Source: a virus
Strand: one strand, 5' to 3'
Virus record (IMG/VR): IMGVR_UViG_3300046683_000098
Location: 1-25,919 of that record
Length of the DNA: 25,919 bases
Numbering within the stretch: position 1 is the first letter of the stretch; every line of letters begins with the position of its first letter. The translations under genes were made by a program, and so were the position numbers. Below, one piece after another: positions 3,689-9,884 of this stretch. Below the pieces are notes generated by a model. The model was not told the DNA's origin and searched no databases. It worked only from the letters and a program-made list of their open reading frames with translations.

Positions 3689-3993
3689 AAAGCATTGCGA
3701 GCTATACCCTCGAGGCCGGCGGCCAGTGCCTGATCTACATGCCGGCCGGCGCGCAGACGCTGGCCGTCGGAGCCGAGACGCTGGCCGTCGGCCGAGGCGA
3801 GCTCCGCACAGCGCCGTGCGTGTACGCGTTAGTTGAGGCCGATGCGCTGCTCGAGCCGCGGAAGTTTCTCGTGCTGCCGACGTGGACAGCGCTGATCGCG
3901 GATGATGTGTCCGTAGCGCACTACATCGGCCGCATCGAGATCGGAGCGCAGATCTTCCACGTGTTCGATCAGCAGCGCGGCGCAGCGCTGTGA
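3685..3993 (+). CDS. Small DUF7352-like phage protein
   Basis: A 102-residue protein of unknown function. It resembles the small phage family labelled DUF7352: an early MPAGAQTLAV element, a middle PCVYALVE strand, a KFLVLPT strand, then HYIGRIEIG and a closing FHVFD. This pattern suggests a compact beta-rich fold. An internal repeat, TLAVGAE then TLAVGRG, lies around residues 25-38. The start is GTG 3685, overlapping the portal stop, and the gene overlaps the MuF gene by four bases, so it is translated with the head genes. It has no signal peptide or membrane segment. Confidence 0.75.
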   Translation: MKSIASYTLEAGGQCLIYMPAGAQTLAVGAETLAVGRGELRTAPCVYALVEADALLEPRKFLVLPTWTALIADDVSVAHYIGRIEIGAQIFHVFDQQRGAAL

Positions 3994-6401
3994 GCCTGCG
4001 CGCGGCACTCCGGCATCGCGCGCAGATGTCGCAGGCCTTCGGCTTGCCGAAACCGCGCATCGCGCGCGCTGTGCGCATCCGGCCGGCCAGATACGCGCAC
4101 GCGGCACAGCTCGCGTACATCCGCGCGCTGCTCGACGTCGTGGCCACGATCCGCGCTGCGCTCGAGCGGCACATCGTGCCAGCACTGCCAGCACTCGTCG
4201 CAGCGCACGCAGCCACGAGGCCGCAGCCGAGCGTGTTCGACGCGCGCGGCCAGCGCATCGCGATTGTGGGTGCTCCGCGCGCAGGCAAGACGACGCTCGC
4301 GCTCGAGCTCGGCAAGCAGCTCGGCATGTCCGTGCAGAGCTCCGACGACTTGATACCGCTCGGCTGGAGCGAGGCCAGCAGCGAGCTCGCGGATCGCATC
4401 GCAGCCGCGGACAGCGGCATATTTGAAGGCGTCGCTGTGATCCGCGCGCTGCGCAAGCTGCTCGAGCGCAGCCGCGACAAGCCTGTCGATCATCTGCTCG
4501 TGCTGCACATGCCTCACGAGCGGCTCACGAGCGGCCAAGCGGCCATGGCGGCCGGCGTGCGCACTGTCCTGCAGGCCACGCTGCCGACGCTGATCGCGCG
4601 CGGCGTGGAGGTGTACCACGACGCGGATCAGCTGCGCGCAGCGCTGCCAGCGCGGCTCGATGCCGAGGATGATGATCCCACAGTCGAGCTGTTCGATCGC
4701 GTGCGCGCGGACGTCGAGAGTGATGTGCCGAGCGGCCGCATCTCGCTGCTCGCGCAGCAGAACGCGCTGCGCGTCGACGAACACGTAGCCGGAGAGCTCA
4801 AAGCGCAGATCAAGCAGGTTGTGGCCATCGATCTGCACGCTCCGGACACAGGCGTGCCGCAGCACGTGCGCAACTTCGTCGCGCAGCAGATCACGCTCGT
4901 GAAAGGCCTCACGGAGAAAACGCTCGCGGACACGCACAGCGTCGTGCTCGAGGGTATCCGGCAAGGCCTGCGCGCGGAGGAGATCGCGAAGCAGCTGCGC
5001 GAGCAAGTCGGCCTGAGCAAAACGCGCGCAACGATCATCGCGAACGATCAAGTCGGCAAGCTGCACGGAGAGCTCACGCGGCTGCGTCAAACCTCGCTTG
5101 GGATCAAGCGCTACCGCTGGGCCACGAGCCGCGACGAGCTCGTGCGGCCAGGACACAGAGCGCTCGAAGGCACTACGCAGTCATGGGACGAGCCTCCAGT
5201 CGTCAATGCACGCACAGGCAAGCGCGCGCATCCAGGCATGGACACGCACTTTTACCCGTGCCGCTGCTCGGCCATTCCGATCATCGACGACTTGCTCGAG
5301 GAAGCCGGACTCAACACTGTGCCGCCGCCAGCGCCGCCGCCGGCCAACACGAACGAGCCAGCGAACACGAACGCGAAGCCGAAGCGCGCGCGAGCCAAGC
5401 CTAAGCCTGCTGCGCTGCCTCCGGAGCACACTCCAGAGCACTGGATACCGCACTACGCCAAGGAGTACGGCGCTGCGGCTCCACAAGTTGCGTGGGGCCG
5501 AGCGATGTCCGAGCGCGGCGGCGCGCTCGCGCTCGACGACTTCTGGGAAGGCGCGGACGCGCTGCGCAAGAGTGGCATCGAGTACCAAGATCCGCGCACA
5601 GCGACGTACGTGCGCGAGCTGATCGCGGAGCGCAACCCGCGGACGATCCGTGAGCTGCTCGATGCGATGGCCGCGGATCCGGACATCTCGGACAACCGTC
5701 GCGCGATTGCCGGCGAGCTGCGCGTCGCAGCGCAGCTCGTGAGCCATCAGCGCGCACTGAAAGGCTCGACAGCGCGCATCAAACTGAGCCGCGAGATCTC
5801 CAAGAGCCGCGGCGCGCGCAGGACTGCCGAGGAGCTCAGCGCAGCGCGCAGCCGCGCAAAGCGTTTCTACGAGACAATGACGCACAAGGACGTGCGGCAG
5901 CCTGTCGACTACCACTGGCACGCAAACAGCGCTCCGCGCGCGAGCCAGAATCAACCGCCGGCAGCCGATCGCACGGACGGCCGGATCAACTTCGGAGTGG
6001 GCCACAAGTGGAAAGATCCGAAGCTGATCGAGGACACGCTCCACGAGTGGGGCCACAGCCTCGAGTCGCTGAACGGCTCGCGGCTCGCAGCCGCTGTCGA
6101 CTTCCTCGACGCGCGCACAGTGGGCGAGGCAGCCGTCGAGCTGCGGAGCGTGCCAGGCCTCGAGAAACACGGCTACGGCGCGGAGGAGATCACGAAGCCT
6201 GACAAGCTATTCCATGCGTATGTAGGCAAAGTCTACAAGAGCCGCGACAAGGACTGGCTCAACTACAGCGGCCGCTTCGCGACGGAGGTGACGTCGATGG
6301 GAGTCCAGCACATGCACGACGTCACGACGCTCCACAGCGCAGTCGTCTCGCAGGATCCGGACTTCCTCGACTTCATCCTCGGCCAGCTCGCGAACCGCTG
6401 A
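3990..6401 (+). CDS. MuF head-morphogenesis protein with inserted P-loop kinase-like domain and C-terminal HExxH peptidase-like domain
   Basis: This 803-residue protein is about twice the usual size for a Mu gpF/SPP1 gp7 relative. Residues 1-85 and about 226-435 are the minor head protein, ending in the typical MuF block WATSRDELVRPGH (from 376), then WDEPP, HPG and CRCSAIP. Between these lies a P-loop domain (about 87-216): strand RIAIVG, Walker A GAPRAGKT (94-101), SSDD at 117-120, and FEGVAV near 145-150, like small nucleotide kinases. After a Pro/Asn/Lys linker (443-478) is a C-terminal region with HEWGH at 685-689 and TEVTSMG (Glu766), a zinc metallopeptidase-like pair. MuF proteins with C-terminal enzymatic or toxin domains are known. 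The roles of both extra domains here are inferred. The start is GTG 3990, overlapping the previous stop; the gene converges with a minus-strand gene one base away. Confidence 0.85.
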   Translation: MSLRAALRHRAQMSQAFGLPKPRIARAVRIRPARYAHAAQLAYIRALLDVVATIRAALERHIVPALPALVAAHAATRPQPSVFDARGQRIAIVGAPRAGKTTLALELGKQLGMSVQSSDDLIPLGWSEASSELADRIAAADSGIFEGVAVIRALRKLLERSRDKPVDHLLVLHMPHERLTSGQAAMAAGVRTVLQATLPTLIARGVEVYHDADQLRAALPARLDAEDDDPTVELFDRVRADVESDVPSGRISLLAQQNALRVDEHVAGELKAQIKQVVAIDLHAPDTGVPQHVRNFVAQQITLVKGLTEKTLADTHSVVLEGIRQGLRAEEIAKQLREQVGLSKTRATIIANDQVGKLHGELTRLRQTSLGIKRYRWATSRDELVRPGHRALEGTTQSWDEPPVVNARTGKRAHPGMDTHFYPCRCSAIPIIDDLLEEAGLNTVPPPAPPPANTNEPANTNAKPKRARAKPKPAALPPEHTPEHWIPHYAKEYGAAAPQVAWGRAMSERGGALALDDFWEGADALRKSGIEYQDPRTATYVRELIAERNPRTIRELLDAMAADPDISDNRRAIAGELRVAAQLVSHQRALKGSTARIKLSREISKSRGARRTAEELSAARSRAKRFYETMTHKDVRQPVDYHWHANSAPRASQNQPPAADRTDGRINFGVGHKWKDPKLIEDTLHEWGHSLESLNGSRLAAAVDFLDARTVGEAAVELRSVPGLEKHGYGAEEITKPDKLFHAYVGKVYKSRDKDWLNYSGRFATEVTSMGVQHMHDVTTLHSAVVSQDPDFLDFILGQLANR

Positions 6402-6402
6402 A

Positions 6403-6714
6403 TCAGTACACTGCGTCCGGATCGTGCTCGTGATCGACAGGCAGCGGAGGCAGCGTCGGAGCGCTTTCGAGCGTCACTGGCTGGCCGCGCTTGCTCAGCG
6501 AGTAGGCCCAGCCTGCGCACCAAGCATGGACGTGATACGGGTTGTGCGTGTCGAGCTGCTCGCTGCCGCTCGGCTCCGGCCGGACGCTCACAGGCCGCGC
6601 ACGGCCGAACGCAAGCAGCGCGAGCTCGCTGCGGAGCTTGCGCGCGAGCGCGCCGTCGCCGTCGACAAGGCCGCCGAGCTGCACGCGTGTGCCATCGCTA
6701 AATCGCCACTCCAC
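6403..6714 (-). CDS. Accessory phage protein, unknown function
   Basis: A 103-residue protein of unknown function read leftward, converging on the MuF gene with one base between stops. It opens WRFSDGTRVQLGG, has a middle segment with LDTHNPYHVHAW, and closes PTLPPLPVDHEHDPDAVY. That layout resembles small uncharacterised phage proteins, which supports a real gene, as does codon use like that of the structural genes. The start is GTG 6714. A -10-like TACACT preceded by TG lies exactly six bases upstream, so a leaderless transcript is likely. It is the leftmost gene of the mixed-strand island. Confidence 0.65.
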   Translation of the reverse strand: MEWRFSDGTRVQLGGLVDGDGALARKLRSELALLAFGRARPVSVRPEPSGSEQLDTHNPYHVHAWCAGWAYSLSKRGQPVTLESAPTLPPLPVDHEHDPDAVY

Positions 6715-6800: not shown

Positions 6801-6818
6801 GCGTCTGCGCTATAGCGC
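6801..6818. promoter_or_regulatory. Palindromic -10-like element upstream of the gene at 6833
   Basis: GCGTCTGC is followed by CTATAGCGC. The inner 12 bp, GCGCTATAGCGC (6807-6818), are a perfect palindrome, so a TATAGC hexamer reads on both strands. It would start plus-strand RNA about ten bases before ATG 6833 and could also serve the minus-strand gene at 6714 with a longer leader. The first 14 bases match 8024-8037 with one difference. Promoter activity is inferred. Confidence 0.35.
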
Positions 6819-6832
6819 GTGTGGGAGGGTAT

Positions 6833-7057
6833 ATGGAGAAATGTACGGACGCCGAGCGGCTCGAGCTCGAGGCGATCTGCCGTCGCTTGGCACTCGAACT
6901 CATGGCCTCGCTCACTGGCGCGCAGCGGCGCAAGATCGGCTTCGCGCTGTTTCTGTACGACTTCGGCGCGGACGGCAACCTCGCATACATGTCGAACGGC
7001 AATCGCGAGGACATGGTCAAGATGCTGCACGAGTTCCTAGGCAAGACGAGCGACTGA
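6833..7057 (+). CDS. Small accessory phage protein, unknown function
   Basis: A 74-residue protein. The conserved-looking core GFALFLYDFGADGNLAYMSN, followed by an amphipathic helix with KMLHEFL, resembles small phage proteins of unknown function found in many phages of Gram-negative hosts. The open frame extends upstream to 6746, but ATG 6833 has a strong purine-rich ribosome site (GGGAGGG, 6823-6829) and a -10-like element before it. Translation therefore probably begins there with a short leader, unlike its minus-strand neighbours. No membrane segment or metal site is seen. Confidence 0.75.
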   Translation: MEKCTDAERLELEAICRRLALELMASLTGAQRRKIGFALFLYDFGADGNLAYMSNGNREDMVKMLHEFLGKTSD

Positions 7058-7063
7058 CGGCGA

Positions 7064-7324
7064 CTAGCGCCGCGGAAGCCTTGCGACGACGACGCGCAGC
7101 GCGTGCTCGAGCGCGTCCGGAGCCTCCGCGCTGCTGCGCTCCGCGAGCGTGGTACGTCGCAGCGTGAGGCCTCGGCCGCGAGCGTCGATGCTGTCCGCGA
7201 ACCGGAGCACTTCCGCGCAGTGGACGCAGATCGCCCACGCTCCAGCGAGCGGCCGACGGCTGGAGTCGTCGACGCAGTGGAAGTCCTGCAGCCACTCGCC
7301 ACAGGCCGGGCAACGTGCGTGCAT
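7064..7324 (-). CDS. Small zinc-ribbon protein
   Basis: An 86-residue protein with four paired cysteines, CPAC at 5-8 and CVHC at 33-36, which fits a zinc ribbon. The second pair is followed by AEVLRF, a pattern seen in small phage proteins with a metal-binding N-terminus. The C-terminal half is Arg/Ala-rich and helical. Its molecular role is unknown. It lies 27 bases downstream of the larger minus-strand gene and converges with the gene ending at 7057. ATG 7324 has TATCCT six bases upstream and no Shine-Dalgarno, so it may be made from its own leaderless message, although read-through from the 8023 promoter is also possible. Confidence 0.65.
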   Translation of the reverse strand: MHARCPACGEWLQDFHCVDDSSRRPLAGAWAICVHCAEVLRFADSIDARGRGLTLRRTTLAERSSAEAPDALEHALRVVVARLPRR

Positions 7325-7351: not shown

Positions 7352-8023
7352 CTAGTGCGCTGCCGCGCGATTCTCGAGATGTGCACACGTATCGTCGATC
7401 ACGTCGAGCAGCTCGCGCAGCTCCGCGCGCGCGCATGTCAGGCCGTGGATGGCCGCTCCGATCGCTCCGAGCGGCTTGCCGGCACACAGCTGCGCGACGT
7501 CGCGCTCGAGCTGGAGCGAGATCGCGTCGAAGGCCTCGCGGCTCAAGCCAGCCTTGAGCACTTCGCGCTCGGCTTCCGTGTAGCCGCGTGCCGCGTGAAG
7601 GCCGAGCGCTCGCGCGAGCCGCTCGCTCTCCGCATGTTCGAGCACGAGCTCTCCGGCTAGCCTGCCGTCCTCGCGGTACAGCGCGACGAGCTCGCTGCTC
7701 GAGCTCGATGCCAGCACGTCGAGCCGCGTGATCGATGTGCGCTGCCGTCGCTGATTCAGGCCTGGGTAGCTGCGCACGCGCGGCAGCGGCTCGATCATCC
7801 GCCGGATGCAGCCGAGCAGGCAGCGTACGACATAGGCCGGATCGAGATCGCGCACTGCCACGAGCGCATCCGGATGCTCGCGATCGCGATCGTGCACGAG
7901 CAGGACAACGTCCAGCGCGTCGCGGCCGAGGATGTCCGCGAGTTGGCCGATGAGTGGAGCGATGCGATCGCGCACGCGTGCCACAGCCTGCAGCACTCTA
8001 CTAGATTGCGTCTCGGCTTCCAT
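7352..8023 (-). CDS. Accessory phage protein, unknown function
   Basis: A 223-residue protein of unknown function. The N-terminal part has two helices and a hydrophobic strand, DVVLLVHDRD, then a segment with RDLDPAYVVRCLLGCIRRM. A Ser-rich piece (LASSSSSEL) leads to a long Glu/Arg/Ala/Leu-rich helical C-terminal half. The minus-strand reading has the codon habits of the structural genes (CTC-GAG, GCG, CGC, GAC), while the overlapping plus-strand frame gives an Arg-rich, non-protein-like product. It is divergent from the gene at 8050, with only 26 bases between the two ATGs. That gap holds one palindromic promoter-like element. No enzyme motif is recognised. Confidence 0.65.
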   Translation of the reverse strand: MEAETQSSRVLQAVARVRDRIAPLIGQLADILGRDALDVVLLVHDRDREHPDALVAVRDLDPAYVVRCLLGCIRRMIEPLPRVRSYPGLNQRRQRTSITRLDVLASSSSSELVALYREDGRLAGELVLEHAESERLARALGLHAARGYTEAEREVLKAGLSREAFDAISLQLERDVAQLCAGKPLGAIGAAIHGLTCARAELRELLDVIDDTCAHLENRAAAH

Positions 8024-8031
8024 GCGTCTGC

Positions 8032-8041
8032 ACTATATAGT
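8032..8041. promoter_or_regulatory. Symmetric bidirectional -10 palindrome between divergent leaderless genes
   Basis: ACTATATAGT is a perfect 10-bp palindrome. The minus-strand ATG at 8023 lies 8 bases to its left and the plus-strand ATG at 8050 lies 8 bases to its right. TATAGT reads identically toward each gene, and neither start has room for a Shine-Dalgarno in a transcript initiated there. One element could thus start two leaderless RNAs in opposite directions. No convincing -35 is seen on either side. Confidence 0.5.
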
Positions 8042-8049
8042 CCGCGGCT

Positions 8050-8589
8050 ATGCCTGACTACAACCCACAAGACACAGTCTCGCTCGCGGAGCTCGAACGG
8101 TTGATCGGCGTAGACAGAGTGCGGAGTCTGCACGAGCGGATCCAGACAGCGCGATGGTCGGCCAAGTGTGAGCAGCTGCTGCATCGGATGCGCGAGATTG
8201 TCGACGCGCTGCTCGCGCTCGAGCCGACGACGATGGAGAGCCGGCCGAGTTGGTTTGCGCTGCAAGAGGAGTTCACGTCCGTATCCGCGCGACTCAACGC
8301 GCTGCACGCGCCGGAGCCGCTCGAGCCGGAGTGCGAGCTCGAGCCGCACTGCGAGCTCGAGCAGGTTTGCCGATGGTGCTGCAAGCCGTACGACGCGCAT
8401 CTGTCCGAGCGCGCGCCAGGAGCGCCGCAGCCGCGCATGCCGTGCCTCGGCCTCAAGTCGTCATACCTCGCGAGAGACTGCGCGCAGCACGCGCCGCCGC
8501 GGAGCGTCGAGCCAGAGGAGCGCTGCATCGCGTGCGCGCTCACGGACGGCGGCGTGTGCCCCGATCACGCAGCCGAGCGCAGCTCGTGA
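8050..8589 (+). CDS. Cys-rich accessory protein, unknown function
   Basis: A 179-residue protein. The N-terminal half is helical (SLAELERLIGVDRVRSL, then a leucine-rich helix to about 60). The C-terminal half is rich in possible metal ligands: Cys107, Cys110, Cys111, His117, Cys132, Cys144, His147, Cys159, Cys162, Cys170 and His173, which suggests one or two zinc sites. An 18-bp unit beginning CTCGAGCCG is repeated at 8320-8337 and 8338-8355, with half of a third copy, giving tandem LEPxCE. It starts 8 bases after the symmetric promoter-like palindrome and ends 116 bases before the DUF2213 gene. The family is not recognised, so any function would be a guess. Confidence 0.65.
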   Translation: MPDYNPQDTVSLAELERLIGVDRVRSLHERIQTARWSAKCEQLLHRMREIVDALLALEPTTMESRPSWFALQEEFTSVSARLNALHAPEPLEPECELEPHCELEQVCRWCCKPYDAHLSERAPGAPQPRMPCLGLKSSYLARDCAQHAPPRSVEPEERCIACALTDGGVCPDHAAERSS

Positions 8590-8670: not shown

Positions 8671-8698
8671 TTGACACGCTTCGGCCTCCGTTGATAGC
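8671..8698 (+). promoter_or_regulatory. Predicted leaderless promoter of the DUF2213 gene
   Basis: A perfect TTGACA (8671-8676), a 16-bp spacer, GATAGC (8693-8698) and 7 bp lead to GTG 8706. It lies in the 116-bp gap after the accessory island, where the head operon resumes. The geometry matches the elements before the portal and gp25-like genes. It also decides the start: GTG 8706 rather than the in-frame TTG at 8691, which lies inside the promoter. Confidence 0.55.
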
Positions 8699-8705
8699 GG
8701 TCCTC

Positions 8706-9884
8706 GTGTCACTCGCGTCACTCGTCGCTCGCTTCGACGCTGCGCGTCTCGGCCAGACAAGCCGCACCCCACAAGGGTTTCTGCGCGCTCCGGCACGATT
8801 GACGCGCACTGGAGTGCTTACGTATCGACGCGCAGACGGCACGGTAGTGCGCGAGCTGCGTCGTCCTGAGCAAGTGTTTCGACCTGACTCGCTCGCGAGC
8901 TTGGCCGACGCTCCGCTCACGGATCTGCATCCCAAAGTGATGGTCAATCCGGCCAACGCGCGCGAGCTCGGACACGGACACGTGAGCCAGTCCACTGTGC
9001 GCGCAGACGGCCGTTTCGTCGCTGGCGAAGTGATCGTCACGGACGCTGGCATGATCGGCGCTATCGAAGGCGGCAAGCGCCGCGAGATCTCGGCCGGCTA
9101 CAACTGTAAGCTCGTGGTAGGCGCAGGCGTCTGGAACGGCGAGCACTACGACGCCGAGCAAACGGACATCGTCTACAACCACGTCGGCATCGGCCCAGCA
9201 AATTGGGGCCGAGCTGGCAGCGACGTCGCGCTTCGGCTCGACGGCGCGGCCGAGGAGCTGCCGACGACTGAAACTGCTTGGCTCACGGACGCGTCCGACG
9301 CTCCGGAGCTCGAGCCTGAACTGAAGCCAAGAGGGAAAGTCATGGAGCTCGTCACGATCCGCATCGATGCCATCGACGTGCAAGTGCCGCAAGCAGCGGC
9401 GCAGCTGATCAACCGAGCGCTCGAGCAGCGCGACGCTGCCATCGCTTCGGCCAAGTCCGAAGCGACAGGCCACAAGTCGCGGCTCGACGCGCTGCAAGGC
9501 GAGCTCGACGGCACGAAAGTGAAGCTCACGGAAGCTGCGGATCCGAATCGCTTCGACTCCGCTGTCACGGAGCGCATCGCGCTGCTCGAGCGCGCGCGCG
9601 GAGTGCTCGGCGCCGAAGCCAAGCTCGACGGCAAGAGCGCGCGCGAGATCAAGGAGCTTGTGATCAAGCATCTGGACTCGAGCGCGGACTTTGCCGGCAA
9701 GTCGGACGAGTACGTGCAAGGTCGCTTCGACGCGGCCGGCGTGCCGGACGGCAACCCGCTCGACGACGCGCGTCGGCAGCTGCACACGCGCGGAGACGGC
9801 GGCAACCCGCCGGCTAACCCGCCAAAGTTCGCGACGCCGCCATGGCGCAAACCACTGTCCGCGACGCGCTCGTCCTCGAGCTAG
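8706..9884 (+). CDS. DUF2213 protein, likely prohead protease/scaffold-type
   Basis: A 392-residue protein. The N-terminal 200 residues match the DUF2213 pattern: RFDAARLGQTSRTPQGFL, then ARLTRTGVLTYRRADG, then LTDLHPKVMVNP, GHVS, and REISAGYNCKL. DUF2213 proteins lie before the capsid genes of many myophages and are thought to act in prohead maturation or as scaffolds. After an acidic, Pro-rich joint (about 195-215) the C-terminal half is a charged helical region with a coiled-coil look (QLINRALEQRDAAIASAKSE), as expected for an internal scaffold. GTG 8706 is chosen because the product then begins just before the conserved RFDA block. It is followed by the cement and capsid genes, which supports the head-assembly role. 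The catalytic residues are not identified. Confidence 0.85.
   Translation: MSLASLVARFDAARLGQTSRTPQGFLRAPARLTRTGVLTYRRADGTVVRELRRPEQVFRPDSLASLADAPLTDLHPKVMVNPANARELGHGHVSQSTVRADGRFVAGEVIVTDAGMIGAIEGGKRREISAGYNCKLVVGAGVWNGEHYDAEQTDIVYNHVGIGPANWGRAGSDVALRLDGAAEELPTTETAWLTDASDAPELEPELKPRGKVMELVTIRIDAIDVQVPQAAAQLINRALEQRDAAIASAKSEATGHKSRLDALQGELDGTKVKLTEAADPNRFDSAVTERIALLERARGVLGAEAKLDGKSAREIKELVIKHLDSSADFAGKSDEYVQGRFDAAGVPDGNPLDDARRQLHTRGDGGNPPANPPKFATPPWRKPLSATRSSSS

Follow-up and report, generated by a model that had tools for sequence, protein, structure and literature searches.

Two divergent genes in the accessory slot of a tailed phage

The window analyzed here is a complete IMG/VR record, IMGVR_UViG_3300046683_000098 (25,919 nt, or 25.9 kb; GC 66%), and represents a partial genome of a high-GC tailed phage. 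It carries a packaging, head, and tail module that encodes a terminase, a Mu-F-like protein, a DUF2213 head maturation protease, a major head protein, and a baseplate protein. The N-terminal part of the Mu-F-like protein (3990–6401) weakly resembles a P-loop kinase (AAA_18, slightly below the Pfam cut-off). Two genome scans detected no provirus that would point to a host. An accessory slot of five genes lies between the Mu-F-like gene and the DUF2213 protease gene, and two of them, a minus-strand ORF of 223 amino acids (7352–8023) and a plus-strand ORF of 179 amino acids with a Cys-rich C-terminal part (8050–8589), diverge from a gap of 26 bp.

The gap (8024–8049) is bordered by CAT at 8021–8023, the ATG of the minus-strand gene, and by ATG at 8050–8052 on the plus strand, and it reads GCGTCTGC-ACTATATAGT-CCGCGGCT, that is, 8 nt, a perfect 10-bp palindrome (8032–8041), and another 8 nt. 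A sequence-only reading of the window had described this arrangement, together with an identical TATAGT hexamer on each strand at an equal distance from the start codon. On re-reading the sequence we found the first description exact, and each hexamer does lie 8 nt before its ATG. The mirror symmetry is confined to the 10-bp core; the flanks are unlike each other, as are the -35 regions. An in-frame TAG of each ORF falls within the palindrome (8038–8040 and the mirror position), so neither ORF is able to begin farther upstream.

Positions 1–25919 contain 117 perfect 10-bp palindromes, compared to some 40 that base composition by itself would predict, and nearly all of them are GC-rich. ACTATATAGT is the sole AT-rich member of this set and occurs once in the contig, even when up to two mismatches are allowed. 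At the composition of the contig, an AT-rich 10-bp palindrome is roughly 100 times rarer than palindromes overall. When the 26-mer was shuffled with its composition preserved, a centered 10-bp palindrome appeared in 0.11% of shuffles, and a -10 hexamer with five of six matches, equidistant on the two strands, in 0.0045%; both percentages are post hoc, the site having been chosen by eye.

Coding potential of the divergent genes

Judged by their sequences, both ORFs are probably coding. Residues 106–145 of the plus-strand product (window positions 8365–8484) share 60% identity with an ORF (4989–5342) in L108, a 53.6-kb contig that also encodes the DUF2213 gene of a member (L059) of the family to which this phage belongs (about 50 contigs with a DUF2213 protein at least 42% identical, collected by alignment-based searches). 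Because this homologue of the Cys-rich domain is conserved in frame, it supports the plus frame; coding bias within the first 17 codons makes ATG 8050 a better candidate than TTG 8101, the start codon that comes next. The small Cys-containing domain, CRWCxKxYDAH...GAPQPRMPCxGL, is common to unlinked genes of two family members (the window and L108) and has no Pfam match.

The minus ORF ranks first of the six frames over almost its full length, with a codon score of 0.15 bits/codon versus 0.2–0.5 for the structural genes. None of the collections searched held a convincing homologue, and searches by family, structure, and plasmid gave no convincing match that would suggest a function. Neither divergent product matches a DNA-binding family, and their single-sequence folds were of low confidence, too poor for a fold search. 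The next gene on the minus strand (7064–7324) is Zn-ribbon-like and has a homologue in L008, in the same slot and on the same strand, and the minus-strand gene at 6403–6714 has a homologue in L097. Codon bias and the conserved gene downstream indirectly support the minus frame, which is probably, although not certainly, translated.

The symmetry could in principle be a coincidence: the minus ORF would then be an antisense artifact of high GC content, and the palindrome would have no shared role. At a GC content of 66%, long ORFs frequently arise by chance (antisense ORFs reach 454 and 783 amino acids in length), and the lack of a homologue, the abundance of 10-bp palindromes in the contig, and the post hoc selection of the site all fit such an account. 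Set against it are the near-continuous first rank of the minus frame, the neighboring gene with a homologue on the same strand, and the rarity of AT-rich palindromes. A search for the same strict geometry across IMG/VR also counts against it, as all 5 contigs returned lack a pair of long ORFs. On balance we regard coincidence as quite improbable. The 5 contigs were rejected as related cases: they are unrelated, lower in GC, and their ORFs span just 2–49 amino acids.

Candidate promoter elements

TATAGT occurs twice in the contig, both strands counted, and both copies lie in this gap, as the candidate -10 element of the plus gene (8036–8041) and of the minus gene (8037–8032, minus strand). The two hexamers overlap by 2 bp, each has -11A and -7T on its own strand, and they are the only hexamers in the gap region that combine these bases. 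Overlapping -10 elements on both strands, each with -11A and -7T, are the feature by which bidirectional promoters have been recognized (PMC10268837), and the gap possesses it. The -35 regions are poor. A weak candidate for the minus gene, TAGTCA (8055–8060, minus strand; 4/6 matches, spacing 17), lies within the plus gene, and a very weak one for the plus gene, TCGGCT (8013–8018, plus strand; 3/6, spacing 17), was read from the sequence within the minus gene.

The usual distance from a -10 element to the start site is 5–8 nt. Discriminators of this length predict start sites at 8047–8050 on the plus strand and 8026–8023 on the minus strand, with leaders of 0–3 nt and a separation of about 23 bp, or 27 bp should each mRNA begin with the A of its ATG. 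Each strand has G at the predicted -18; the T at -18 that is typical, though not required, of the commonest 18-bp arrangement is therefore absent.

These elements are also compatible with a promoter that fires in one direction, most likely toward the minus gene, with the plus gene translated from read-through RNA and the second TATAGT a by-product of the symmetry of the -10 element. The read-through would come from an upstream plus-strand promoter, for instance before 6833, or from a late operon. The minus gene has the better -35 (4/6 vs 3/6), and the minus-side promoter is the only sigma70-like match across 6–12 kb; the plus gene is co-oriented with the structural genes; and in relatives L013–L015, L036, and L037 a slot promoter with a -35 element points to the minus gene only. 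However, the plus gene has no Shine–Dalgarno (SD) sequence, so that a long mRNA would yield little of its protein, and TATAGT is equally placed on the plus side. We consider a one-directional promoter unlikely.

Leaderless-type starts in the slot and at the head protease gene

No SD sequence precedes the start at 8023 (minus) or 8050 (plus), whereas AGGAG, GGAGG, or GGAG is found at many of the contig's other genes. A TANNNT hexamer lies 6–8 nt ahead of the start in four of the five slot genes and in 0 of 26 other gene starts, compared with a control rate of 1.2% over all ATG, GTG, and TTG codons of the contig. The four comprise the divergent pair (TATAGT-N8-ATG, starts 8023 and 8050) and two minus-strand genes, starting at 6714 (TACACT-N6-GTG) and at 7324 (TATCCT-N6-ATG, the Zn-ribbon-like gene), all without an SD. 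The starts at 6714 and 7324 have similar surroundings, with GCTANNCTTGCGNC ahead of the start codon. The fifth gene, starting at 6833 on the plus strand, has a good SD instead, with a TATAGC element farther upstream: the region 6801–6833 holds a related element, GCGTCTGCGCTATAGC, followed by the SD and the ATG, and 13 of its first 14 bases match 8024–8037. GCGTCTGCGCTATAGC is part of a 12-bp palindrome, GCGCTATAGCGC.

Zheng et al. (2011, PMC3160421) described a class of leaderless genes that lack an SD and have TANNNT some 12 nt ahead of the start codon. The divergent pair resembles this class in having TANNNT near the start codon without an SD in a high-GC genome, and the genes at 6714 and 7324 match the published 12 nt. 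In the pair, by contrast, the first T of TATAGT precedes each ATG by 14 nt, and a single palindrome is common to the two genes. Of the earlier proposal that both genes are leaderless, the absence of SD sequences, the placing of the -10-like hexamers for leaders of 0–3 nt, and the recurrence of leaderless-type starts in the slot and family all held up; a strict absence of leaders gives way to predicted leaders of possibly up to 3 nt on both mRNAs.

Starts of this type recur at the head protease gene, where the window has TTGACA (8671–8676), GATAGC (8693–8698), and GTG (8706–8708) on the plus strand. We compared this region in 33 distinct family sequences (the window plus L007/L030, L008, L013, and L031–L072), and the geometry is kept: TTGAC[A/G/C] stands 34, 35, or 36 nt before the GTG of the DUF2213 gene, TA is found at -11/-10 in 23 of the 33, and no SD was seen upstream of the GTG in any of them. 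In many family sequences an earlier start is impossible because the TGA within TTGACA is an in-frame stop. The spacing fits a promoter whose start site would coincide with the start codon. Since it is kept in all 33 sequences, leaderless-type starts appear to be a family habit at the head operon, and with this conserved GTG, leaderless translation could be tested on a structural operon. A family-wide search found no TANNNT peak before starts in general, and we therefore restrict the TANNNT claim to the slot and the protease gene.

The slot in related phages

Relatives carry other minus-strand genes in the interval that precedes the protease gene. TTGACG-N18-TATAGC is found on the minus strand in five of these arrangements (L013/L033, L014, L015/L034, L036, and L037), in several of which an SD and start codon follow. 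Both cores, GCTATAGC in the relatives and ACTATATAGT in the window, are palindromic, and related palindromic TATA cores thus occupy the -10 position ahead of minus-strand slot genes. No relative was found with both divergent genes or with the palindrome itself, and a start codon at an equal short distance on either side, between long ORFs, is absent from all of them. In L066, the slot before the head protease gene holds a HicA/HicB-like toxin–antitoxin pair (4155–4795, minus strand), whose start codon adjoins ATTATAAT.

Perfect dyad symmetry is also what a dimeric regulator of one or both genes would impose, in which case the palindrome would be chiefly an operator, its symmetry reflecting a protein dimer rather than the polymerase. 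The related palindromic core GCGCTATAGCGC ahead of 6833 and the HicA/HicB-like pair of the L066 slot, which belongs to a class with known autoregulation, are consistent with an operator. Yet operators are typically longer than this 10-bp AT-rich palindrome, searches linked neither product to a DNA-binding family, and the similar core in relatives sits at the -10 position behind TTGACG. Operator and promoter functions are compatible rather than exclusive; an operator as the chief role is improbable, and an operator-only function is disfavored by the -10 placement of the relatives' core.

A possible compact bidirectional promoter

We favor, at about an even chance, the view that the gap is a weak, compact, bidirectional sigma70-type core with overlapping -10 elements that yields two mRNAs with 0–3 nt leaders. 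RNA polymerase would dock on the palindrome in either orientation, with TATAGT as the -10 element each way, and transcription would proceed from about 8047–8050 on the plus strand and 8026–8023 on the minus strand. Leaders of 0–3 nt would make both mRNAs leaderless or nearly so, with ribosomes starting at a 5′-terminal AUG. From sequence features we infer that both strands are transcribed, that transcription starts at these positions, and that the minus frame is translated. The rare exact symmetry, the unique TATAGT pair, the absence of SD sequences, the TANNNT hexamers of the slot, the TATA cores of relatives, the family's GTG start, and the coding signals count in favor of this promoter. Counting against it are the poor -35 regions, a predicted start-site separation of about 23 bp that misses the modal 18 (27 bp would exceed the 7–25 bp range), the lack of the element or of both genes in any relative, the absence of a family-wide TANNNT peak, and a minus ORF without a homologue. 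A stricter version, in which the palindromic -10 is the only promoter of both genes, the mRNAs are strictly leaderless, and polymerase orientation sets the ratio of two accessory proteins, is possible but on the doubtful side.

Bidirectional promoters with symmetric -10 elements are known in bacteria (Warman et al.; PMC10268837, PMC12825309) and are defined by opposite-strand start sites 7–25 bp apart, with a mode of 18 bp (PMC10268837). The window shares with them one -10 region readable both ways, weak -35 elements, and a predicted separation, about 23 bp, that falls within the range. It departs from them in that this separation is not the modal one, the T at -18 is missing, and both predicted products are leaderless coding mRNAs. 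Because both -35 regions are poor, low basal activity is expected in both directions. The two genes had been proposed to be expressed in competition, and this we do not uphold: shared DNA alone is insufficient, and competition is negligible at the basal activity of published bidirectional promoters (PMC12825309). In E. coli, all five bidirectional promoters studied were too weak basally for polymerases to compete, and competition appeared only after one direction had been strongly increased (PMC12825309). Strong mutual exclusion is thus probably not to be expected unless an activator acts.

A divergent leaderless pair of phage genes is not unprecedented, given that the cI and cro mRNAs of PY54 both start at the AUG, as mapped by RACE (PMC4488713). 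Both systems involve divergent phage genes, with AUG-initial mRNAs mapped in PY54 and predicted in the window. In PY54, however, each gene has its own promoter and an operator lies between the repressor genes, whereas the window has a shared 10-bp core and no recognizable repressor. We found no report in the open-access literature of one -10 element shared by two leaderless genes; each half of the design is known, and the combination is unusually compact. If our reading is correct, the locus would be a near-minimal divergent transcription unit, its start codons 26 bp apart around a single 10-bp core and its mRNAs free of leaders, and would offer a clean test bed for polymerase orientation alone setting the ratio of two proteins.
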